From contig CAJWHF010000003.1 in NCBI GenBank assembly GCA_913041275.1, positions 1-55,176 of the forward strand: a stretch of 55,176 nucleotides of DNA. The letters run 5' to 3'. Positions 38,360 through 52,301 of the stretch are shown here, in pieces. The translations under genes were made by a program, and so were the position numbers. This DNA is from an uncultured Opitutia bacterium. GTDB taxonomy: Bacteria > Verrucomicrobiota > Verrucomicrobiia > Opitutales > Coraliomargaritaceae. The notes beneath the pieces are model-generated. The model made no database searches and was not told the origin of the DNA. It saw only the letters and a program-made list of their open reading frames with translations. Position 1 is the stretch's first letter; each line of letters begins with the position of its first letter.

Positions 38360-40363
38360 ATGGCCGCTGAGAATAAATCATCGACCTGTATGTCTTGTCA
38401 TACTGTTTCAGAAGATTTCGAGGACTTGGATCTGAAGACTTCTCGTCATTGGTTACGCATTGCAGTAGCTTGTGTATTTGCAGGTCAAGGGATGGTATTT
38501 TCCTTAGCGCTAAATATGACACCGCCTTCTTTTGTCTCTCCCGCGTATCTAATTTTACATGGCGGTCTGATAATCTCGGCATTGGTAGTTATGGGTGTAC
38601 TTGGCCCCCCTTTATTTGTGTCAACTTGGGAGATGTTAAAAGCGCGGCGTATATCGATTGAGGGTCTTTTTACTCTGAGCTTATTGGCTGCCTTTTTAGG
38701 TTCGCTTGCAGGTTCTATAAGCGGGGGGGGAGATGTCTTCTACGAGGTCATAGCAATAGTTATAGCTATTTATACTTTTGGTAGGATCCTAGGTGAACGT
38801 TCCCACTCAAACCTCAAGCGAGAAAGCGAAGTTCTAAAAGATCGCTTCAATTGTGCTATCGTACGTAGTGAAACGGGTCAGTGGGTGGAAAAACATATAT
38901 CCAATATACCAGTCGGAGAATTACTTAGAGTAGATCCAGGAGCTTCTTTTGCTGCGGATGGAGTAATATTGGAAGGAAGTGGTTATGTAGAAGAGACTGC
39001 TTTGACTGGCGAGCCATTGCCAGTTATTCGCCAGCCCGGAGATAAAGTGCGAGCAGGAACATGGTCTGTTGATAGCCGTTTTATTCTTGAAGTTGAGCAG
39101 ACACTGGGTGGTCGTGAATTGGATAAAATCTTAGATGCTTTAGACTCTCCTGATGGTCGACCTTCTATTTTTCAATCAAAAGCGAACGTCTTTATTAGTT
39201 ACTTTCTTCCATTAGTATTAGTAATAAGCGCTGGTACTGCATTGTTTTGGTTTCTAGCAGGTACTTGGGTAGATGCCGTATTAAATAGCATGGCAGTTTT
39301 ACTAGTAGCCTGCCCATGCGCACTGGGTTTAGCTACTCCTGTAGCAATTTCACATGGGCTATTTCGCCTCGCGCAGATGGGTTTAATTAGTCGCGATGGT
39401 GCGTTAATAGATACCTTGGCTCAAACGCGTCAGGTATTTTTTGACAAAACTGGCACTTTGAGTGAATCAAGTCTTCAAGTGGTGGATACTTGGACTAAAG
39501 AACCTCTACCGATTGAACGCATTGCACTGATTTCCTCTATAGTGCAGGCGCAGTCCAGCGTTAAGCATCCGGTTGCCCGTGCCATTAGCCAGTATTTAGG
39601 TGATAATAATATATTTATTGAGGACCAAATTAAAAATTTACGCTTAATTCCAGGTTCAGGTATAGAGTTCTTTTTAAATTATGGAGGTACCTCAAAGAAG
39701 GTCCTCGTAGGAGATGAGGATTTATATGACACGTCTGAATCGATGCAGGAGGTGCTCCATAAGCTGCATGAAAAAAGAGGCAAACGTATTTTTGTTTGGT
39801 ACGACGAAGAACTAGTATTTTGTTTTGTACTACGCGAGCGTCTTCGAAATGGTGTTAGCGAGGTTTGTTGTGACTTAAACGGGCTAGATATTGACGCGAG
39901 GGTCTTAACTGGGGACCCTTCACCAGATATTAAATTTCCAGAAGAAATAGGATTAGAAATAGGACTTACTTCTGCTGATAAAGTTCAATACGTCACTGAT
40001 TCGCGTGCGGACGGAAAGTTTCCATTATTTGTAGGGGATGGAATCAATGACACGGCGGCTATGACAGCTGCTAGTGGATCGATCGCTATGGACAGTGGGG
40101 TGGGGCTAGCGCGATCTGCTGCCATGGCTATTTTATCAGAGGATCGATTAACAGCTATTCCTGAAGCAATTAGATTATCAAGATCCATACACAAACGCTT
40201 GTGGGGTAGTTTGCTCTTTGCGGCATTGTATAACTTGGTTGGAGTTTTTTTGGCAGCAGTAGGAGCCTTAACACCTGTAATCGCAGCTATAATTATGCTC
40301 ATATCTAGTTTTCTTGTGATGTACCGAGCAGTAAGCCAAAATTCTTATATTAAGAAGCGCTAA
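38360..40363 (+). CDS. ccoI: Copper-type P1B ATPase, likely CcoI/FixI for cbb3 assembly
   Basis: The 667-aa pump has the TALTGEP actuator loop, the phosphorylation motif DKTGT, KHPVAR, GDGINDTAAM, and the metal-path motifs ACPCALG, YN and MxxSS in the last helices. These mark a Cu(I) ATPase. It lies 113 bases before the Act/cbb3 cluster that also encodes CcoS, so its job is probably supplying copper to CcoN as in CcoI/FixI. Unlike usual CcoI it has no N-terminal heavy-metal-associated domain; instead a short CMSCH motif (C10-H14) may bind the metal. Cytosolic position makes haem attachment unlikely. Confidence 0.88.
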   Translation: MAAENKSSTCMSCHTVSEDFEDLDLKTSRHWLRIAVACVFAGQGMVFSLALNMTPPSFVSPAYLILHGGLIISALVVMGVLGPPLFVSTWEMLKARRISIEGLFTLSLLAAFLGSLAGSISGGGDVFYEVIAIVIAIYTFGRILGERSHSNLKRESEVLKDRFNCAIVRSETGQWVEKHISNIPVGELLRVDPGASFAADGVILEGSGYVEETALTGEPLPVIRQPGDKVRAGTWSVDSRFILEVEQTLGGRELDKILDALDSPDGRPSIFQSKANVFISYFLPLVLVISAGTALFWFLAGTWVDAVLNSMAVLLVACPCALGLATPVAISHGLFRLAQMGLISRDGALIDTLAQTRQVFFDKTGTLSESSLQVVDTWTKEPLPIERIALISSIVQAQSSVKHPVARAISQYLGDNNIFIEDQIKNLRLIPGSGIEFFLNYGGTSKKVLVGDEDLYDTSESMQEVLHKLHEKRGKRIFVWYDEELVFCFVLRERLRNGVSEVCCDLNGLDIDARVLTGDPSPDIKFPEEIGLEIGLTSADKVQYVTDSRADGKFPLFVGDGINDTAAMTAASGSIAMDSGVGLARSAAMAILSEDRLTAIPEAIRLSRSIHKRLWGSLLFAALYNLVGVFLAAVGALTPVIAAIIMLISSFLVMYRAVSQNSYIKKR

Positions 40364-40713: not shown

Positions 40714-41367
40714 ATGGCCAATGTATTTCCCAAGTGGGTCAATACGATTCCTATTAAAGTAGTTGTTGCTGTTATCTTGATAAAGACAGCGGTAATTGCG
40801 GGTTTCACCTACTATGCCACTCCAAAATATACTCGCGTTGGTTATGCTCCTACACAGCCGGTAGCCTTTAGTCATGCGCTTCACTCTGGTCAGTTAGAGA
40901 TTGATTGTCGTTATTGTCATACAAACGTAGATCGATCAGAGCACTCGAATGTCCCTGCTACCGAAGTTTGTATGTCCTGTCACAGTATGGTCCGTAAAGA
41001 CGACCCTATCCTTGCTCCAGTTCGTGAGAGTTACGCTTCAGGGGAGCCCATTCCTTGGGTTCGCATTCACAAAACCCCTGATTACGTATATTTTAATCAC
41101 GCAGTCCATGTTAATCGAGGCATCAGCTGCGTCGAATGTCACGGCCGTGTCGATCAAATGAAAGTAGTACATCATGATAAACCTCTTAGCATGGGTTTCT
41201 GCCTAGATTGTCACCGAAATCCTGAAGAGTATATACGTCCGCCTGAGGAAGTTTATAATTTGGCTTGGGAGAGGCCGAAAACTGAAGAATTTAATGAAAT
41301 GGCTGCCGGATTCGTTCACGACTGGAAAGTTAACCCACCACAAAGCTGCTCTGGTTGTCACCGTTAA
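40714..41367 (+). CDS. actA: Alternative complex III subunit ActA, pentahaem cytochrome c
   Basis: ActA carries electrons within the quinol:cytochrome c oxidoreductase ACIII. The 217-aa protein has an N-terminal membrane anchor (about 15-35) and five haem-binding CxxCH motifs: CRYCH (65-69), CMSCH (86-90), CVECH (139-143), CLDCH (163-167) and CSGCH (212-216). Additional histidines (for example HALH, HKTPDY, HAVH) can act as axial ligands. Five haems are the standard number. ActB follows after 14 bases. Confidence 0.94.
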   Translation: MANVFPKWVNTIPIKVVVAVILIKTAVIAGFTYYATPKYTRVGYAPTQPVAFSHALHSGQLEIDCRYCHTNVDRSEHSNVPATEVCMSCHSMVRKDDPILAPVRESYASGEPIPWVRIHKTPDYVYFNHAVHVNRGISCVECHGRVDQMKVVHHDKPLSMGFCLDCHRNPEEYIRPPEEVYNLAWERPKTEEFNEMAAGFVHDWKVNPPQSCSGCHR

Positions 41368-41381
41368 ATTATATTTAAGTA

Positions 41382-44300
41382 ATGAAAAATTCTGAATACA
41401 CAGGCCCACGCTACTGGAAGAGCCTTGACGATCTGGCAGAAACGCCTGCTTTCAAGGACTGGATGGAACGTGAGTTTCCTTCAGGGGCATCCGAAATTGA
41501 GGGCGTTAACCGTCGCCAATTTATGAAAGTTATGGCTGCTTCTTTCGGACTTGCTGGTCTTGGTATGTCTGGATGCCGTCGCCCAGAGCAAGTTATTTTG
41601 CCTTATTCGAAGGCACCTGAGAACGTTATTCCGGGTATTCCCATTTATTACAGTTCCTCTCAACCTGGCATCCGCGACAATATTCCTGTTATTGTGGAAA
41701 CACATTCTGGACGTCCAACCAAGATAGAAGGAAATCCTAGCTACAAGCCTTATGGTGGTGCGACTACTGTGTACACTCAGGCTAGCATTCTTGACCTTTA
41801 TGATCCTGACCGAGCGACCAAGTCTAGTGTGAGCATTAGTCGGGTGCGAGATCGACTTACTGAAATTCATAAAGCTCATCTTGCTGACCAAGGAGAAGGG
41901 CTTGTTTTTTTAGCAGAGCCTAGTACTTCCCCTAGTCGAGCTTTTCTTGCTGCTTCGATTAAAGAAACATTCCCTAAGGCTTTGTGGGCAGAATATGCTG
42001 CTATAGATAAAACTAACTCAGAGAAGGCTGCCAAGGCGGTTTACGGGAAATCCCTACGCTCAATTCCTGACTTTAGTAAAGCCAAACGTGTTTTGTCACT
42101 AGATGCTGACTTTCTATCAAGTTCTGATGGGCACACCAGTTTTGTACGTGATTACGCTAAGGCCAGAAGAGTAAAAGATTCAAAAGATGCGAAGGATATG
42201 AGTCGCTTGTATTCAGTGGAAAGTGTAATGTCTTCAACTGGAGCTGCTGCAGATCACCGCCTTAGACTTAGCGCATCTCAAATCGGCGCTTTCGCCGCGC
42301 TTATTGCAGTGGATATTCTTGAGCAAAAGAATGGCGACCGCGCGTTAATAAATACTCTCAAAAAAATTGGCGAGTCTCTAGATGTAGATCGTAATTGGGT
42401 GCGAGAGTGTGCCAACGATCTAATAGAGTTTTCTGGTAAGTCTTTGGTAGTTGCAGGTGATGGCCTCTCCAAATCTGCGCATGCTATTGTTTTCGCAATT
42501 AATGAGGCGCTGGAAGCACCGGTAAAGTACGTAGAGGTAGCAGATGCAGAGTTAGGCATACAAGCCGCTGCAAATCGTTTGAACGAGGGTAATGTGAAAA
42601 CTCTGGTCGTGCTGGGTGGCAATCCAGCTTATAATGCACCGGCGAATTTAGATTGGGTTAGTTGCCAAGCTAAGGCCCGCGAGAGTATTTATTTTGGTAG
42701 CGACAAAAACGAAACAGCTAAACTAGCGACCTTCACAATTGCCGCATCCCACTACCTAGAAAGCTGGGGTGACGGTAGGACATTTGACGGTACACTCGTT
42801 CCAGTGCAACCGATGATTGAGCCACTTTTCCCTACTTTCAACGAGTTGGAAGTACTAGCTCTTATTAGTGGATCTGCAGTCCGCGACGCATACTCAATAG
42901 TACAGGAAACCTTTAAAGCTCAGGGCGGATTAGACTTTAATAAATTCCTAAGCGATGGACTACTTGAAGGGTCTAGCTTCAGCCCTTTTTTAGCCGATTC
43001 AGGTAATTATATAAATTCGATAAATATCAGTGAACTTGTGATACCCGAGTTAAGCGCCTCGAGCTTGGAGGTCATTTTTACAGCTAGTTCTCATGCTGGT
43101 GATGGCCGGTATGCAAATAATGGTTGGATGATGGAGTGCCCGGATCCGATGACGAAGCTTACTTGGGATAATGCTATTCTTGTGAGCCCACGTTTGGCTA
43201 AAGAATTGGAAAAAAGGGATGGTATCCAAATATTCCCTAACAAAAAGCCCATGAATAAGGATAGTAAATTCTTTGAAGGGGCAAAGGGTACATTGCAAAC
43301 GAACAAGGCTGAGTTCAAGCGTGGCAAAGAACAAGCCGTAGTTGCCGAGCTTGATCTTAACGGCCGTAAGGTCAAAGGCCCGATTCATGTGCTTCCTGGA
43401 ATGGCTAATTACACAGTAGCATTACCTCTAGGGATGGGTCGTAAAGTTGTAGGCCGCGTAGGGCAGGGCGTAGGCTTTAATGCTTACTCTGTGCGCACCG
43501 CAAAACAATCAGGAGCCCATACAAGTGCTACAATACAATTAACTTCAGAGGTCTATGAACTCGCCAACACACAAGAGCACTGGTCAATGGAGGGCCGCGC
43601 AATTGTTCGTGAAGGTACCGCTGAATACTATGCTAAGCATCCGGACTTTGCTACTAAGATGGGAGTTGAGTCTCATGCACCGGCAAACTACGGCAAGGAC
43701 GAGGGTAAGACTCTTCAAGATAAGTCTACCGGTCAGTATCGTGGTAATTCTGCGTATAAACATCCAAGTTTTGCGGAACCTGCTCCCAATGTAAAAGTAT
43801 GGAAGGGCGATGAGGCTCGTGCTAAATTTCCCGATATTCAACAATGGGGTTTGGCGGTAGATATGAATACGTGCTTCGGTTGCTCTGCTTGCGTCGTTGC
43901 GTGTCAAAGTGAAAATAATACGCCCATCGTTGGAAAAGACCAGGTACTACGTGGTCGCGAAATGCATTGGATGCGCATAGATCGTTATTTTTCTGCAGAG
44001 AAATACGACCAAGAGGAAATCCCAGAAGACGTACAAGTCTCGTTCATGGGTGTTAGTTGCCAGCATTGTGAGAATGCACCTTGCGAGCAGGTTTGCCCTG
44101 TCAACGCGACTGTACATGATAATCAGGGACTAAATACGATGGCTTATAATCGATGTGTTGGCACACGATACTGCGCTAACAATTGCCCCTATAAAGTAAG
44201 AAGGTTTAATTTCTTTGACTGGAATAAGCGCCAGATCGGTGAATTCTATAAAGGTCCTCTAGGTCCTGTGGACGAACCGGAGCTGCATAAAATGCAAAAG

Positions 44301-44738
44301 AACCCTAATGTTACGATACGCATGAGAGGTGTGATGGAGAAGTGCACTTACTGTACCCAGCGTATAGAGGCAGCAAAAATAGACCAGAAGCGTAGAGCAG
44401 GTGCCTCAGGTAATATTAAAGTAAAAGATGGGACTATTAAGACTGCTTGTCAGCAAGTTTGCCCCACTGATGCTATAACATTTGGTGATATTTCTGATCC
44501 TAATTCTGAGGTTTCGAAAATGAAGGCAAGTGACCGTAATTATTCTGTTTTAGGCTACTTAAACGTGCGCCCACGTACTACTTATCTTGCTCGATTACGT
44601 AATCCAAATTCGAAGATGCCTGATGCTTATGAAAAGCCTTACGCATACGCTCAATATAAAGAGCGCTATGGTAGTAGTGGTAAGTACAGTAAAGAGGAGC
44701 ATTCTCCACACATTAAAGAGGCATCACTTACTCATTAA
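41382..44738 (+). CDS. actB: Alternative complex III subunit ActB, molybdopterin-like and Fe-S fusion
   Basis: The 1118-aa protein has a Tat motif ([11 protein letters not shown] at 44-45) and a lipobox-like GMSGC (C65). A molybdopterin-oxidoreductase-type region (about 70-760) follows, and then a ferredoxin-type part (about 820-1060). The latter shows [35 protein letters not shown] and CTYC ... CQQVC, ligands for four Fe-S clusters. In known ACIII the molybdopterin domain has lost its cofactor and the Fe-S clusters pass electrons. Length and layout match ActB. It lies in the periplasm. Confidence 0.94.
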
Positions 44739-44762: not shown

Positions 44763-46262
44763 ATGACTAGCACGACACAAAATAGTTCTTTGGATGCACC
44801 AGAGGCAGCTTTATTAGCTAGAGTCCAGCCTGCCCAGTTGAAGGACGAACCACTTGTCTCTAATAATCGCGATTTTAATTGGGTGACTGATAAAATTTGC
44901 CGTGTTGTAGAAACAAAGACTCCTTTATGGTGGTGGGTTTGTATGGTGGTAGCACTGATGACTGCTTCTTTTACTGGTATCGGATTAGTTTGGTTAGTTA
45001 GTACAGGCGTAGGTGTTTGGGGTTTGGCTAATCCAATAAATTGGGGTTGGGCGATTGTGAATTTTGTTTTTTGGATTGGTATTGGTCATGCGGGAACACT
45101 TATTTCGGCTGTACTTTGTCTGTTAAAACAAGGATGGCGTACTTCTATTAATCGCGCGGCAGAAGCGATGACAATTTTTGCAGTTGTTTGTGCAGGAGTT
45201 TTTCCTTTGTTCCATGTTGGTAGGGTGTGGTTCGCTTGGTGGTTGTTTCCAATTCCTAATAGTAACGCGATTTGGCCGCAGTTCCGTTCTCCACTAGAGT
45301 GGGATGTATTCGCTGTATCGACTTATGGTACTGTTTCCGTGCTTTTCTGGTACATGGGTATGATACCGGATCTAGCAGTTCTTCGTGATCGTGCAGTACA
45401 AAGACTCAATAAGAATGCTTACGAGAGTGCCGGTGCGTTAGCCAAAGGCATGGATTATTTCCGTAAGAATCTTTACGCAATTTTTGCTATGGGTTGGCGT
45501 AATGCAGGTAATCATTGGCGTAACTATGAAATGGCTTACTTAGTTCTTGCAGGGTTGTCTACTCCACTGGTTCTCTCTGTTCACACCATCGTTTCTTTCG
45601 ACTTCGCTCTAGCAGTACTACCTGGTTGGCACACTACTATTTTCCCCCCTTATTTTGTGGCAGGTGCTATTTTCTCAGGATTTGGTATGGTGCTCACACT
45701 GATGTTACCGCTGCGTGCGCTGTATGGATTACATGATCTTATTACACAGCGCCACATAGATAATATGTGTAAGATATGCCTGGGTACTGGCTCTATAGTC
45801 GGTTATGCCTACATCATGGAGTTCTTTATCGCGTGGTACGGTGCGAACCCATACGAGAGCTTCGCCTTTATTAATCGTGCTTTTGGTCAATACTGGTGGG
45901 CATATCTTATGATGTTCAGCTGTAACGTTTTCACGCCTCAGTTATTTTGGTTCCAGAAGGTACGCAAAAATGCAGCGCTTGTGTGGATTATGTCGATCTT
46001 CATTAATGTAGGCATGTGGTTTGAGCGATTCGTAATCACTGTGACCTCATTAGCTAATGATTTCCTACCTTCTAGCTGGGGATATTATTCACCCACGATT
46101 GTCGACATCCTTACCTTCTTCGGTACATTTGGTCTTTTTACAGTGCTCTTTCTTCTCTTTTTACGCTTCCTGCCTCTTATGCCAATCGCGGAAGTTAAAT
46201 TTGTCATGCCAGCTGCTGATCCGCATGGCCATACCGATCATAGCCAAGGAGATCCCCACTAA
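44763..46262 (+). CDS. actC: Alternative complex III subunit ActC (NrfD/PsrC family)
   Basis: The 499-aa membrane protein has about ten transmembrane helices. Family landmarks include [36 protein letters not shown]-like helices and [10 protein letters not shown]. ActC is one of two NrfD-type subunits of ACIII that bind quinol and may move protons. Its stop overlaps the ActD start by one base (TAATG). The C-terminus is histidine-rich ([12 protein letters not shown]). Confidence 0.93.
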
Positions 46263-46792
46263 TGTCTGATAAATACGGAATCATCGCATCATTTCCTGAC
46301 ACTCCTTCATTATTCCATGCGGCGGAAAAGGTGAGGGATGCTGGTTATAAAAAGTGGGATACTTATTCATCTTTTCCAGTGCATGGTATGCCTGAAGCAC
46401 AAGGGCAACCACGTTCTAAAGTGCCAATCTTTACATTTATTGGCGGTATTACTGGCTTTTCTTTCGGCCTAGTTATGGTCTGGTATATGAATGCTTTTGA
46501 CTATCCTTTGATTGTTCGTGGCCAGCCGTTTTTTAGTCCTGTTTTTCCATTTCCGATAATGTACGAAATGACAATCCTTCTCTCAGCTTTCGGTACACTA
46601 GGTGGTATGTTTATCACTAATTTTCTACCACAGCACTACAGTCCACTTTTTAATAGCGAAACATTTTTGGAAGTTTCAGGCGATAGACTAGTAATCGCTA
46701 TTGAGTCTATCGACGGTCAATACGATCCAGTAGCTACGCGTCAATTTTTAGAGGAAATTGGTGGAAAAGACATAGAGGAGGTCTCCGCTTAG
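46262..46792 (+). CDS. actD: Alternative complex III subunit ActD (DUF3341)
   Basis: The 176-aa protein has a ferredoxin-like N-terminal domain ([28 protein letters not shown]) and two transmembrane helices (about 58-80 and 95-120) separated by [13 protein letters not shown]. This is the DUF3341 layout of ActD. A cytosolic domain followed by the helices anchors it in the ACIII. It overlaps ActC by one base and precedes ActE by nine bases. Confidence 0.92.
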
Positions 46793-46801
46793 GATATTAT
46801 C

Positions 46802-47455
46802 ATGCGTATTTTTTTTGCTATCTTTGTTTTTACTATTGTCGCAACGGTTTCGATCCTTGGGTTCCGTGGATCGCTTAGTAAAAAACCACCACTAGAGGTC
46901 TTTCCGGACATGGACCGTCAGGCTCGCTACAAACCACAAGCTGAAAATGAATTTTTTGACGATGGTCGTAATGATCGCCCGATACCAAGTGGTGCCGTGG
47001 CTCGCGGAAATTATTTTAATCAAAATGAAGTGTTTTCTGAGGATTTTGTCGACCGTCGACTAGGTGATGTAGCCTTTAACAAAGGAAAGCAACCCGATGG
47101 CTCTTTTGTACGTACTTTGCCCACTGATGTTAGCTTCGAGCAAGTAGAGAAGGGTAGGCAAAAGTATGAAATTTTCTGTGTATCTTGCCATGGTTCTGCA
47201 GGTGATGGTAATGGTGTAACTAAGCCCTATGGCGTACTGGCAGCTAGTTACCATGATGACCGTCTTCGTAACGAGGCAGATGGTTATATTTATGATGTAA
47301 TCATGAATGGAAAAGGATTGATGTATGGACTCCGAGATCGTTTGTCTGCGGAAGAAGCTTGGTCAGTAGTACTTTATGTCCGAGCTCTTCAATTCTCCCA
47401 GAACGCTAGTGTAAGCGAACTAACAGCTGCTCAACGCAATGTGTTAGGTTTATAA
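46802..47455 (+). CDS. actE: Alternative complex III subunit ActE, monohaem cytochrome c
   Basis: The 217-aa protein has an N-terminal hydrophobic segment (about 3-20) and one haem site CVSCH (126-130) in the motif FCVSCHGSAGDGNG, with a methionine (MYGL) further on as likely axial ligand. It lacks a lipobox cysteine, so it is held by its N-terminal helix. It is an exit point for electrons in ACIII. ActF starts four bases after its stop. Confidence 0.92.
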   Translation: MRIFFAIFVFTIVATVSILGFRGSLSKKPPLEVFPDMDRQARYKPQAENEFFDDGRNDRPIPSGAVARGNYFNQNEVFSEDFVDRRLGDVAFNKGKQPDGSFVRTLPTDVSFEQVEKGRQKYEIFCVSCHGSAGDGNGVTKPYGVLAASYHDDRLRNEADGYIYDVIMNGKGLMYGLRDRLSAEEAWSVVLYVRALQFSQNASVSELTAAQRNVLGL

Positions 47456-47459
47456 TGTT

Positions 47460-48731
47460 ATGAATGCTAACATATCTAATTCTAAATCAACCAAAGTAGG
47501 CACTATAGCGCTTGTTATTGGAGTAATCGGTACTGCCATCTCACTGTTTGGTTTTAAGCAGGGTTGGAATGTTAGCGAAGTGCGTCCTATTTTAAGCTGG
47601 CTTATAGCAATAGGATTCTGGCTTTCCATTTTGGTTGGTATGCTATTTCTAATTCAAATTTGGTGGGTCTTTCATGCTCGATGGCCCACTATTATTCGTC
47701 GGCAGTGCGAGCACTGTATTGCAGCATTCCCATATTTGCTCATACTTTTTCTACCTCTGCTGGCGATTCCTTTATTTCACGATAATCCAGGCCTTCTTTG
47801 GAAGTGGATGGATGGATACAATGAACTGCCTGGACACGGCACGGTAGCGGAAGACCCGCTTTACGTTTGGAAGTCACCTTTTCTTAACATTCCCTTTTTC
47901 ATCGCACGTGCTGTTGCTATCTTTGCAGTGTTCATTGGGATTTCTACTATTTTACGTAAGTGGTCTTTCGACACTGACGTATCAGGTAATGCCAATAACA
48001 CGCATTGGTCACGTCGTCTTTCTTCCTTAGGGATATTTTTATGTGCTATTGGAGCTACATTTGCATCAATTGATTGGTTCAAGTCTTTAGAGTACCACTG
48101 GTTCTCTACAATGTATGGGGTTTGGTTTTTTGCCGCTTGTATACGTGCGGCATTAGCTTCTATCATCATACTTTGCGTTATTCTTGCGACGAAGGGCTAT
48201 CTAAAGGGAATTCTTAAACAATCCCACCGATACGACATATCTTGCATGATGCTAGCCTTCACAGTCTTTTGGGCATATATCAGTTTTTCCCAGTATTTCT
48301 TAATATATAGTGCCAATATTCCAGAAGAAACCTTTTGGTACAACATGCGTGAGAAAAATTTTGATGGTGAATTAAACAGTTGGTGGTGGGTAAGTATGGG
48401 TTTGATTTTTGGTCATTTCTTGATCCCATTCCTCTTATTACTTTGGTATAAAACTAAAGTAGTTATTTGGCGCACGGTAGGTGTTTCTATATGGATCCTA
48501 TTATTTCATATTCTCGATCTTTACTGGAATATACTACCAGGTAAGCTGATTGTTCCCGATCACGGGGAGGGCTATTTAGTAAGGCAGTTCACTATCACTC
48601 CCTATGATTTTACTGCTTTTATTGGAATCGGTGGATTCTGTATCTTCGCAATGTGCCGTAGTATGAAAAAAACCGAACCTATTCCTATACGTGACCCAAA
48701 TATATTAGAGTCATTAAACTATTCTGAGTAA
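47460..48731 (+). CDS. actF: Alternative complex III subunit ActF (NrfD-like)
   Basis: The 423-aa membrane protein has about ten transmembrane helices, in a pattern related to ActC but shorter. Recognisable parts include AALASIIILCVILATKGY and HILDLYWNILPG. In ACIII it is the second quinone/proton-path subunit. The next gene starts only two bases after the stop, so the cluster is a single operon. Overlap with a cbb3 module just downstream is typical of respiratory clusters of this kind. Confidence 0.91.
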   Translation: MNANISNSKSTKVGTIALVIGVIGTAISLFGFKQGWNVSEVRPILSWLIAIGFWLSILVGMLFLIQIWWVFHARWPTIIRRQCEHCIAAFPYLLILFLPLLAIPLFHDNPGLLWKWMDGYNELPGHGTVAEDPLYVWKSPFLNIPFFIARAVAIFAVFIGISTILRKWSFDTDVSGNANNTHWSRRLSSLGIFLCAIGATFASIDWFKSLEYHWFSTMYGVWFFAACIRAALASIIILCVILATKGYLKGILKQSHRYDISCMMLAFTVFWAYISFSQYFLIYSANIPEETFWYNMREKNFDGELNSWWWVSMGLIFGHFLIPFLLLLWYKTKVVIWRTVGVSIWILLFHILDLYWNILPGKLIVPDHGEGYLVRQFTITPYDFTAFIGIGGFCIFAMCRSMKKTEPIPIRDPNILESLNYSE

Positions 48732-48733
48732 CC

Positions 48734-49117
48734 TTGATGCCTAAAACTCCTATATCTAAAAGTAATTTTCTGCTGACTATTTTGGGTAGCTTGGGAGCGA
48801 TACTTATTTTCGCACTTATTCTCTTTCTATCTTATTTGCCTAACAGACCTGATCCTGTAGATGCTGAAGTCGTGGCTGAACGGCAAGCTAAAGCGGATGA
48901 ATCTCGCGCTGCTGGTATAAAAAAACTTAATAGTTTGGAATTAATAGACCCTATCTCGGGTATCGCACGTGTTCCAATTGATGAAGCGATGCGTCATACT
49001 GTAGAAATGTATAAGACAAAAGAAGTAACACCAATTTTAGGTGAAACGAATGCTGATCCAGATTTAGCTAATGAAACTGCTAGACAAATAAACAACGTGA
49101 ATAATCTGGACCTATAG
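48734..49117 (+). CDS. Uncharacterised membrane protein between ActF and CcoS
   Basis: I cannot name this 127-aa protein. It has one transmembrane helix (about 13-35), then a polar part with a short helical stretch (VVAERQAKADES). A well-ordered core IDPISGIARVPIDEAMRHTV follows at about 74-93, and the tail is acidic. It starts two bases after ActF and ends seven before ccoS, so it is certainly part of the operon. A VPIDEAM-like segment resembles proteins seen next to oxidase clusters in some other phyla; this is recollection, not a search. It may be an extra subunit joining ACIII and the oxidase. Confidence 0.75.
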   Translation: MMPKTPISKSNFLLTILGSLGAILIFALILFLSYLPNRPDPVDAEVVAERQAKADESRAAGIKKLNSLELIDPISGIARVPIDEAMRHTVEMYKTKEVTPILGETNADPDLANETARQINNVNNLDL

Positions 49118-49124
49118 CGACATC

Positions 49125-49328
49125 ATGGACGCAGAAAGCTATACTGATTTAGTTCCCCTGATTTTCATGGGTGTCGTTTTTTTTACTGTAGCAGTTGGAG
49201 CTCTCTATTGGAGCTCTAAAAGAGGTCAGCTCCGCGACTTCGATAAACAAGCTAGGACGATATTTACTGATGAAGAGCCTGAAGGTGAAGTATCTGATTC
49301 ATTCCCAGAAAATAATAAGAAGTTATAA
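49125..49328 (+). CDS. ccoS: cbb3 oxidase assembly protein CcoS
   Basis: The 67-aa protein has one transmembrane helix (about 9-29). The CcoS hallmark follows: W..K.GQL.DF.. with LYWSSKRGQLRDFDK, and an ending of TIFTDEE. CcoS is needed for copper and haem insertion into cbb3 oxidases and works with CcoI. Both are in this cluster. It lies seven bases after the unassigned gene and 83 before ccoN. A CcoQ is not seen separately. Confidence 0.82.
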   Translation: MDAESYTDLVPLIFMGVVFFTVAVGALYWSSKRGQLRDFDKQARTIFTDEEPEGEVSDSFPENNKKL

Positions 49329-49411: not shown

Positions 49412-50881
49412 ATGCCGAATTCTTACAATTCTAGTCCCTACAGTTCTCGCAGTGAATCTGTAAGGGCAGAGCTTAGCGAAATTGATACATCAATTCGCTC
49501 GGCAGCTATATTTTTCGTTATATCTGCAATAGGCTGGCTAATGCTTGGAACTGTTTTTGCTTTGCTTGCAGCGGTTAAGTCTCACTCGCCCGACTTTGCA
49601 GGGGCGTTCGAGTTTCTAACATTCGGGCGTGTTCGTTCAGCACATCTCAATGCCATGGCCTTGGGTTGGGCTAGTAACATAATCTTTGCAGTAGGGCTGT
49701 GGATTATGGCTAGACTTTGCAGAGCACCCATCCAACATAAGGGCATTCTGCTAATTGCTGGTATTTTTTGGAATATCGGCCTTACAATCGGCGTATTCGG
49801 TATACTTAGTGGAGACATGACTTCAGTTGAGTGGTTAGAAATCCCGCGGTATGCCACCCCGTTATTGGCTTTTTCCTATGCATTAATTGGAGTCTGGGGA
49901 GTTATTGCATTCCGTTTCCGTAAAGGTGACCATGTCTATGTCTCCCAGTGGTACATACTTGCCGCGCTTTTCTGGTTCCCGTGGCTCTATGTAGTTGCTC
50001 AGGTCATGATTATATGGTTTCCAGCGCGAGGTGTTGTGCAATCGGTCACTAATTGGTGGTTCGCTCACAATGTGCTAGGGCTTTGGTTCACGCCGATGGC
50101 ACTAGCGACTGCTTACTACCTTATCCCTAAAGTATTAGGGCGTCCTATCTATTCCTACTATCTTTCCGTGCTTGGCTTCTGGTCGTTGGCAATCTTTTAC
50201 AATTGGGCAGGCATCCACCACCTCATAGGTGGTCCGATCCCTGTTTGGCTTATTTCAGCAGGTATTGTGGCCTCAGTCATGATGGTAATTCCGGTCATAG
50301 TAGTTGGCATAAATCACCACATGTCTATAGTCGGGATGCATAAGCAAGTATGGCGTAGTCCGACTTTGCGATTCGTAGTTTTTGGAGCTATTTCATATAC
50401 CTTAGTAAGCATCATCGGTTCCTCTATGGCACTGCGAACAGTAAACGAGATTACGCACTTCACACATTTTACCGTTGGACACGCACATCACGGCGTCTAC
50501 GCATTTTTTACAATGATTATGTTTGGCGGAGTCTATTATATGATGCCGCGACTGCTAAAGTGTGAGTGGCCTTCAGCCGGACTTATAAAAGTTCATTTTT
50601 GGGGATGCGCTATAGGTATCACAATTATGGTTGTTGCACTTCAGGTAGGTGGTTGGATCCAAGGTATGGAAATGAAGAATGCTGAAATCCCTTTTCTGCA
50701 GGTAGTACAAAATACAATTCCTTGGTTAAAGGCGCGCTCTGTATCTGGTCTTTTCTTAACAGTTGGACATTGCGCTTTTGCTTTGAACTTTTTTTGGATG
50801 CTACTTGCTGCTGGCACTTTACGTGCAAAAGAAGGACCCACGCTTTTTGCAAATAAAAGTAAGGAAATCAGTGTAGGATAA
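49412..50881 (+). CDS. ccoN: cbb3-type cytochrome c oxidase subunit I
   Basis: CcoN reduces oxygen to water. The 489-aa protein has about 12 helices. The low-spin haem histidine lies in [12 protein letters not shown], and the copper-B histidines in WWFAHNVLG and WAGIHHL. The nearby tyrosine (YNWAG) and the haem histidines in [13 protein letters not shown] complete the active site. These are the usual CcoN ligands. It overlaps ccoO by one base (TAATG). The 83-base gap upstream may hold a separate promoter, but I see no FNR-type TTGAT-N4-ATCAA. Confidence 0.95.
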
Positions 50882-51558
50882 TGAAAAACTTACCTTTACT
50901 CTTTTGTGGTATTTTCTTTGCCTTAGCATTCTCTTTTGTTGGCTTAGTGCTTACTAGCCACATTCAGTTGGGTAGTTTGACGCGGACTACTGAGACGCTT
51001 GTTCCTTCTGATGATGACCCATCTATCATGGTAGTATCCGAAGGTGATCCGCTTTATCCTCCAAAATCAGTAGGACTGGCGCAGCAAGGAAAGCAGGAAT
51101 ATATTTCCTTGGGATGTATGTATTGCCACAGTCAACAGATACGCCGCGCTGATTTTGGTGCCGATATAGACCGTGGATGGGGTCCGAGGCAGACTGTTGC
51201 GCGAGATTATATCATGCAAGATCGTGTACTTCTAGGTACTATGCGAACTGGGCCAGATTTAGCACATCTTGGTGGCAGATACGCTGGTGATGCAGGGCGT
51301 GATTGGAATCACCTTCATCTTTATAATCCTCAGATTGTATCTAAGGGCTCTACTATGCCACCATTTGCTTTTCTTTACGAGACACGTAAGATTGATAGAG
51401 AAGTTTCTACTGACGCATTAGTGTTTCCTCCAGAATCAAGATATGGACCAGAGGAAGGGTATGAGATAATACCGACCCGACGAGCAGTAGCTTTAGTAGA
51501 ATATTTGTTAAGCTTAAAAATTAACTACAGTTTACCAGAGGCTATTATTCCAGAATAA
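50881..51558 (+). CDS. ccoO: cbb3 oxidase subunit II, monohaem cytochrome c
   Basis: The 225-aa protein has one N-terminal transmembrane helix (about 5-25) and one haem site [10 protein letters not shown] (C79-H83). A methionine in STMPPFAF (M159) is the likely axial ligand. [13 protein letters not shown] is also conserved. It passes electrons to CcoN. It overlaps ccoN at its start and ccoP at its end, each by one base in TAATG. Confidence 0.94.
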
Positions 51559-52301
51559 TGAATAAAAGTGACAAGATCAATAGCTCCAGTTCGGAAAGTC
51601 GTGAATCGATGGAACAGGCTGCAATGCAGGATGAACAGGTCCAGGATGTTCATGCGCAACTTATGCGTGAAAAGGAGGAACCTAAAGAGGGGTTTTCACC
51701 AGTCCCAATTTTCCTTATGTTCTTTTTTGCAGCTTTATGTTTTTGGGGAGGAGTATACCTAGTAGAACATTCAGGTGGCTACAGATGGGACGCATATTCC
51801 CCTGATTTCGACCCTATGGCGGATGCTCCGAAACCAGTAGAAATATCCTTATTCGATCGTGGTGCTAAAATATACCGCAATCAATGTGCCCAGTGTCACC
51901 AAGCTAACGGTAATGGTGTAGCGGGAGTCTATCCTCCATTAGTAGCATCTAGTTGGGTGACAGGTCATCCTGAAGTTGTAGCTCGTATTTTGATTAATGG
52001 TCTTAATGGTCCCTTAATTGTTAAAGGTAAATCATACAATGGAAATATGCCCGCTTTCGGTCCAGGTGGTTTAGGCCTAAAGGAAAAAGACATTGCTGGT
52101 GTAATTACTTATATTCGACAAGAGTGGGGTAATGCAGCACCCGATATGACCGAGCAAATGATTGCGGATTATTCTTCCCAATATAATAGCAGAGCAGCGC
52201 CTTGGTTAGCACTAGAGCTCAAGGAGGACTTAGGGCCTATACCAGAAGTTGTGCCGCTTGAGGAATCCGTTGTAGGTGCCGAAGAAACAGCTGAACTTTA
52301 A
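51558..52301 (+). CDS. ccoP: cbb3-associated cytochrome c with one haem (CcoP-like)
   Basis: The 247-aa protein has a charged N-terminus, one transmembrane helix (about 50-69), and a single haem motif [11 protein letters not shown] (C110-H114). The methionine of NMPAFG (M164) is the probable ligand. Typical CcoP has two haem domains and about 290-310 aa, so this is a short, monohaem version. It may receive electrons from the ACIII haems. The gene is the last of the cluster; no T-rich hairpin follows. Confidence 0.88.

Follow-up and report, generated by a model that had tools for sequence, protein, structure and literature searches.

Results

An act operon followed by cbb3 oxidase genes

The window, by which we mean the whole stretch of 55,176 nucleotides analyzed here, carries the genes of an alternative complex III (ACIII) followed by those of a cbb3 oxidase (Table 1). 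The ORF of interest was confirmed at positions 48734-49117 of the forward strand. Position 48734 is a TTG, one codon before an ATG at 48737. Because this ATG aligns with the start positions of the homologues, it is the best start, and the product read from it has 126 amino acids. Between the end of actF (48731) and the ORF lie 2 bases if the TTG is taken as the start and 5 if the ATG is; downstream, the ccoS-like ORF opens with its ATG (49125) 7 bases after the stop (49117). The close packing between actF and ccoS noted in the preliminary description is confirmed.

Table 1. Position and assignment of the act and cco genes in the window
Feature	Position	Strand	Basis of assignment
actA, multiheme cytochrome c	40714..41367	+	Pfam Cytochrome_C7 match and act-cluster position
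actB (B1-B2, single ORF)	41382..44738	+	Position and sequence
actC (NrfD family)	44763..46262	+	Pfam NrfD, E 1e-17
actD	46262..46792	+	Pfam ActD, E 7.1e-58
actE, monoheme cytochrome c	46802..47455	+	Pfam Cytochrome_CBB3, E 9.4e-12
actF, directly upstream of actG	47460..48731	+	Homologous ActF precedes ActG in 30/30 order loci
actG, ActG subunit (almost certain)	48737..49117	+	Profile match to 8k9e_G, synteny, AF2 model
Parts of the actG product (residues)	TM helix 9-33; helix 43-64; beta hairpin 68-78; helix 81-94; variable tail 95-126
ccoS-like, cbb3 assembly protein	49125..49328	+	Pfam FixS/CcoS, 28.7 bits
ccoN	49412..50881	+	Pfam COX1 and NCBIfam ccoN
ccoO	50881..51558	+	Pfam FixO, E 6.7e-20
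ccoP-like, one CxxCH only	51558..52301	+	Pfam Cytochrom_C; NCBIfam ccoP 8.7e-12, below cut-off

Several neighbours need a comment. The ORF in the actF position received no name of its own from Pfam or NCBIfam; it is homologous to the ORF at the same position in all related clusters. The ccoS-like ORF passed the Pfam FixS/CcoS cut-off of 23.1 bits and failed the NCBIfam ccoS cut-off. Classical CcoP carries two hemes. The CcoP-like protein here contains one CxxCH, and the same holds for its CcoP-like counterparts in related ACIII-cbb3 clusters; a heme chain shortened in this way may fit direct delivery from ACIII. Upstream of actA, a P-type ATPase with a CPC motif is encoded at 38360-40363, which by this motif we take to resemble the CcoI/FixI copper transporters.

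The AF2 model of the 126-residue protein (pLDDT 85.7) has one transmembrane (TM) helix, at residues 9-33, followed by the helix, hairpin and helix delimited in Table 1. The protein contains no Cys and no redox cofactor motif. In the alignment of the homologues from the order, the single TM helix has near-invariant positions and is accompanied by a conserved core, Y-x-W/V-D/N...G-x-v-r-I-P-I-x-x-A-m-x-L, which the window protein keeps in a slightly eroded version. Both the single membrane helix and the conserved-looking core of the preliminary description are thus borne out. In one relative (L008:1495-1740), an in-frame deletion ahead of the final helix removed most of the core strands. No family covering the ORF was found in Pfam or NCBIfam, and a Pfam search at E ≤ 10 likewise returned none.

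The ORF encodes ActG

The window protein, used as the query, matched in 52 of the 132 genomes of the order, its own genome counted, at E ≤ 1e-3, which rules out an orphan or chance ORF. A profile of 30 homologues searched against all PDB chains found 8k9e_G, the ActG subunit of Chloroflexus aurantiacus ACIII, at E 0.0019, the next chain being at 0.76. With profile A3, which consists of 53 proteins from the phylum only, was built after the phylum search and excludes heme-bearing forms, the same chain was matched at E 3.8e-8 and the next at 0.066. The match spans the TM helix and the core. At E 1e-11 to 4e-9, A3, a Verrucomicrobiota-only profile, also matches ORFs of 102-118 amino acids that follow actF on nine Chloroflexota contigs, among them Chloroflexus. 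At the level of structure, VIA-align of the AF2 model gave a weak fit to 8k9e_G (Z 4.0, rmsd 11.5, 80 residues), first among the 3 chains aligned, and the best Foldseek hit in the PDB, at E 8.3, was not significant. The ORF is almost certainly the ActG subunit of ACIII. The preliminary description had held that it matches no known subunit; the profile matches to 8k9e_G overturn this, and the protein belongs, as an ordinary member, to a subunit family that is known and poorly understood.

ActG follows actF throughout the phylum

Thirty loci of the order were kept. In each of them the gene stands directly behind actF and has ccoN on its downstream side; a ccoS-like gene is present in 25. Across 383 genomes of the phylum, profile A1 matched in 90 genomes at 92 places, and ActD was found in 152 genomes. 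ActD is also present in 89 of the 90 A1-positive genomes; the remaining match (G340) is false, a one-TM protein of another kind with no act gene nearby, and was rejected as ActG. All 92 places were inspected (19 + 73), leaving 91 true ones. The gene directly upstream is actF in 90 of these 91, commonly with an overlap of a few bases. In the exception (G203, loci L087/L233), actF and actG are about 6.9 kb apart and actG adjoins ccoN; some genes in that interval carry heme motifs. Among the 72 true places L040-L112, the next recognised gene is ccoN in 58, SCO1 of a caa3 cluster in 13, and none in 1. Two genomes, G035 (L042) and G262 (L055), carry two ACIII clusters: the first is of the cbb3 type, and the second, of the caa3 type, has an actG of its own. 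Their large frames, considered as fusions, proved to be the ordinary actG of these second clusters in a longer open frame. No relatives were found on the viral contigs searched. Orthologues are therefore not located mainly away from respiratory clusters, and ActG is tied to ACIII whatever oxidase adjoins.

The slot next to actF was also read in genomes with ActD and no A1 match, of which there are 63. Forty-nine were examined, the others being 13 f29/g80 genomes with weak ActD matches and one at a contig edge (G441); 43 were judgeable, with ActF found and sequence beyond it, once L194-L196, L216 and L229 (no ActF in the stretch) and L221 (contig edge) were set aside. A one-TM ORF occupies the slot in 41 of the 43 judgeable loci, so that an empty slot is rare; no such ORF stands in L219, and L231 is ambiguous. 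Some families have a degenerate or cut core, the f33 protein being a TM helix with a Pro/Ala-rich tail and the f60 protein only 87 amino acids long. Since the slot proteins of f60 and f33 are truncated or core-less and the slot of L219 is empty, ActG is not essential everywhere. Four f33 loci (L194-L196, L216) have an ActD gene with no ActE or ActF profile match within about 6.5 kb, unlike L114, L198 and L199 of the same family.

Heme domains on slot proteins follow the neighbouring oxidase

At 29 loci in four families (f19, 4; f29, 15; f48, 8; f51, 2), the protein next to actF carries a C-terminal cytochrome c domain. The heme motif is CxxCH, or CxxxCH with three intervening residues in L113, L225 and L226. 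The ActG profile matches these proteins at E 2e-20 and 8e-8 in f51, 8e-10 to 3e-6 in f19 and 1e-8 to 1e-3 in f48. Homology is weak in f29, at E 5e-8 to 4e-5 and mostly over the TM half, and for three f29 proteins (L205, L206, L214) ActG was absent from the two best profiles; because of this weakness, membership of f29 rests on position.

A maximum-likelihood tree of 94 heme domains, in which the CcoP, CtaC and ActE rows are a scripted subsample and columns are few and branches long, separated a CtaC side from a CcoP side with 100/100 support and placed ActE in a group of its own (99/100). Slot heme domains beside caa3 genes grouped with CtaC in 9 of 9 tested, and those beside cbb3 genes fell on the CcoP side in 17 of 17. 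The heme family on the slot protein was thus that of the neighbouring oxidase in 26 of the 26 tested and that of ActE in none. Three more heme-bearing proteins (L208, L215, L220) were read by eye, outside the tree. Since two heme families are represented, CcoP-type and CtaC-type, the heme-bearing forms arose at least twice, and further origins are possible. We found no heme-bearing ActG in the literature searched, which does not prove its absence.

ActG beyond the phylum

Seventy-one further loci came from scanning named genomes; by record names they belong to Acidobacteria, Chloroflexi, Planctomycetota, Armatimonadaceae, Gemmatimonadetes, Kiritimatiellae and a few others. In 67 of the 71, the end of an ActF-like ORF lies no more than 200 bases ahead of actG, and SCO1 or CtaC comes next in 61; the other 10 are nine Chloroflexota loci and one contig end. 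In Chloroflexus, actG follows actF with no oxidase gene adjoining. The preliminary description had asked whether orthologues always lie between actF and an oxidase: the actF side of this holds (90 of 91 true places in the phylum), and the oxidase side fails in Chloroflexus. None of the 71 loci has the heme-bearing form, the scan having favoured the core motif that heme-less members carry. Three proteobacterial records (L165 and L169, Microbulbifer; L174, Tianweitania) contain ACIII-ActG-SCO1-caa3 clusters, possibly acquired by transfer.

Three Chloroflexales loci (Oscillochloris, OHK40) show another order, with ActE, a five-heme ActA-like protein and ActG followed by SCO1-CtaC-CtaD and with no ActF there. 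The ORF that opens them, of 1026-1054 amino acids, is ActB-like by position only. These loci correspond to the Cr arrangement in the available text of PMC3150298, where the C. aurantiacus Cr operon is given as B, E, A and G, with no C, D or F. The portion of PMC9316378 at hand reports that ActABEG(Cp) peak together and that ActCDF are steadier. The Cr arrangement and this co-variation suggest that ActG goes with the partner-specific peripheral module.

Discussion

Electron transfer from ACIII to its oxidase varies among the species studied, and the available sections of PMC8552683 describe it as unsettled. ACIII adjoining a cbb3 oxidase is known in verrucomicrobial methanotrophs and Opitutaceae, a setting in which the Flavobacterium supercomplex has been mentioned (PMC8498564, in part), and the co-location appears in the accessible text of PMC6688271 as well. 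As far as the consulted portions of the papers go, ActG is called peripheral, absent from some clusters or Chloroflexus-specific. They disagree on its presence: it is specific to C. aurantiacus according to PMC9316378, present in R. marinus according to PMC5928083, where it was seen by mass fingerprinting and not in the map, without a homologue of the R. marinus actG in Melioribacter (PMC3534657), and missing together with ActF in Nitrospirales (PMC12342949). Its absence from the R. marinus map could reflect loose binding, which may account for how poorly ActG is known. The actG assignment completes the act operon of the window and removes one unknown from it.

What would such a subunit do? 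We propose that the N-terminus of ActG is short and cytoplasmic and that its one TM helix leads to a small periplasmic domain made of a helix, a beta hairpin with the G-v-r-I-P-I motif and a second helix. Domains with c-type heme mature on the periplasmic side, so the C-terminus of the heme-bearing relatives should be periplasmic, and by extension that of all ActG probably is. The core would then sit, with less certainty, by the peripheral heme module (ActA/ActE) at the electron exit, where ActG could serve as a structural adaptor that keeps ActA/ActE and the acceptor, here the cbb3 oxidase, in register. In the organism of the window, ActG would do so with no cofactor of its own. In some relatives the adaptor appears to have gained an oxidase-type heme domain and may itself pass electrons; the gain would reveal, again with less certainty, that ActG lies close to the oxidase. 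From the ActE-ActA-ActG loci without actF, the co-variation of ActABEG and the 26 of 26 heme families we infer a partner-side role for ActG, and with it a contact between ActG and the oxidase, in both cases from sequence comparison. The broader idea of the preliminary description, a bridge between ACIII and an oxidase, may hold in this new form and draws indirect support from the oxidase-type heme domains on slot proteins. Taken whole, the statement that ActG is an ACIII subunit acting as an exit-side adaptor seems to us somewhat probable. The adaptor role on the electron-exit side, judged separately, has about even chances. Counting against the statement are the Chloroflexus Cp ACIII, with an ActG and no oxidase neighbour, the weak structural fit to 8k9e_G, the reduced or missing slot proteins of f60, f33 and L219, the weak homology in f29 and the distance between actF and actG in G203.

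A linker or subunit specific to the ACIII-cbb3 pair, comparable to CcoQ or CcoH, would account for the ccoN gene downstream in all 30 order loci inspected, and the preliminary description had proposed a link of this sort. It is too narrow. The same gene precedes SCO1-caa3 genes in 13 of 72 phylum loci and SCO1 or CtaC in 61 of 71 loci across phyla, and it stands with no oxidase adjoining in Chloroflexus; the window protein has no FixQ/CcoQ match, and of the 30 members one matches at E 0.11. Because homologues of the window protein stand in caa3 clusters, we rejected a cbb3-specific linker or CcoQ-like subunit and regard it as very improbable. An assembly or maturation factor of ACIII, rather than a structural subunit, might be expected to be small, with a single TM helix and a variable tail, and sometimes truncated, as ActG is. 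Such a factor is improbable, since a homologue is a chain in the solved Chloroflexus ACIII entries and, in the accessible part of PMC5928083, peptide mass fingerprinting found ActG in the R. marinus ACIII sample.

The strongest competitor is that ActG simply stabilises the interface between the membrane and peripheral parts of ACIII, with no coupling to the oxidase, and that the heme fusions are lineage-specific additions. An ACIII with ActG and no adjoining oxidase gene in Chloroflexus and the lack of a cofactor in most members fit this, as do the missing density of R. marinus ActG and the missing gene in some clusters (PMC5928083, in part). Against it, the family of the fused heme tracks the neighbouring oxidase in all 26 tested loci, and operons that lack actF retain ActG together with the E and A genes, also in the available text of PMC3150298. 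We consider interface stabilisation alone unlikely, less so than the two readings above. Beyond the exit-side adaptor, ActG could be a partner-matching module of ACIII that chooses the docking oxidase, the two or more heme gains being a built-in electron bridge; this we put forward tentatively, at somewhat less than even chances. If it is true, a heme bridge built into ActG would add a second solution to the one in Flavobacterium, where the heme domain of ActA is the mobile part. Because it follows actF in many phyla, is kept with the heme module and sometimes bears an oxidase-type heme, ActG offers a concrete candidate, open to experiment, for the component that links ACIII with its acceptor.

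CcoQ/FixQ and CcoS are small one-TM proteins of cbb3 clusters. The window ORF resembles them in size and in its single helix, has no sequence match to them and, unlike them, has relatives in caa3 clusters as well. The closest known counterpart is ActG of Chloroflexus aurantiacus (8k9e chain G; Caur_0627 in the accessible text of PMC3150298), which likewise comes directly after actF, has one TM helix and has the core (SYG...GKVHIPIDRAMDL) in common with the window protein. It is 112 amino acids long against 126 and, unlike the window protein, belongs to a photosynthetic ACIII with no adjoining oxidase gene and has a longer N-terminal extension; the window protein has instead a 30-residue C-terminal tail and a cbb3 cluster downstream. 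Rhodothermus marinus ActG, predicted as a one-TM, cofactor-free subunit in the available part of PMC5928083, is likened to the window ActG by description only, and the portion of PMC9316378 at hand gives R. marinus as being without the Chloroflexus ActG. In Flavobacterium johnsoniae, an extra N-terminal, membrane-tethered c heme of ActA has been proposed to lie between ACIII and the oxidase (PMC8552683, in part). We propose the same position for the heme of the heme-bearing ActG relatives; in F. johnsoniae it is carried by ActA, whereas the ActG of the window is heme-free.
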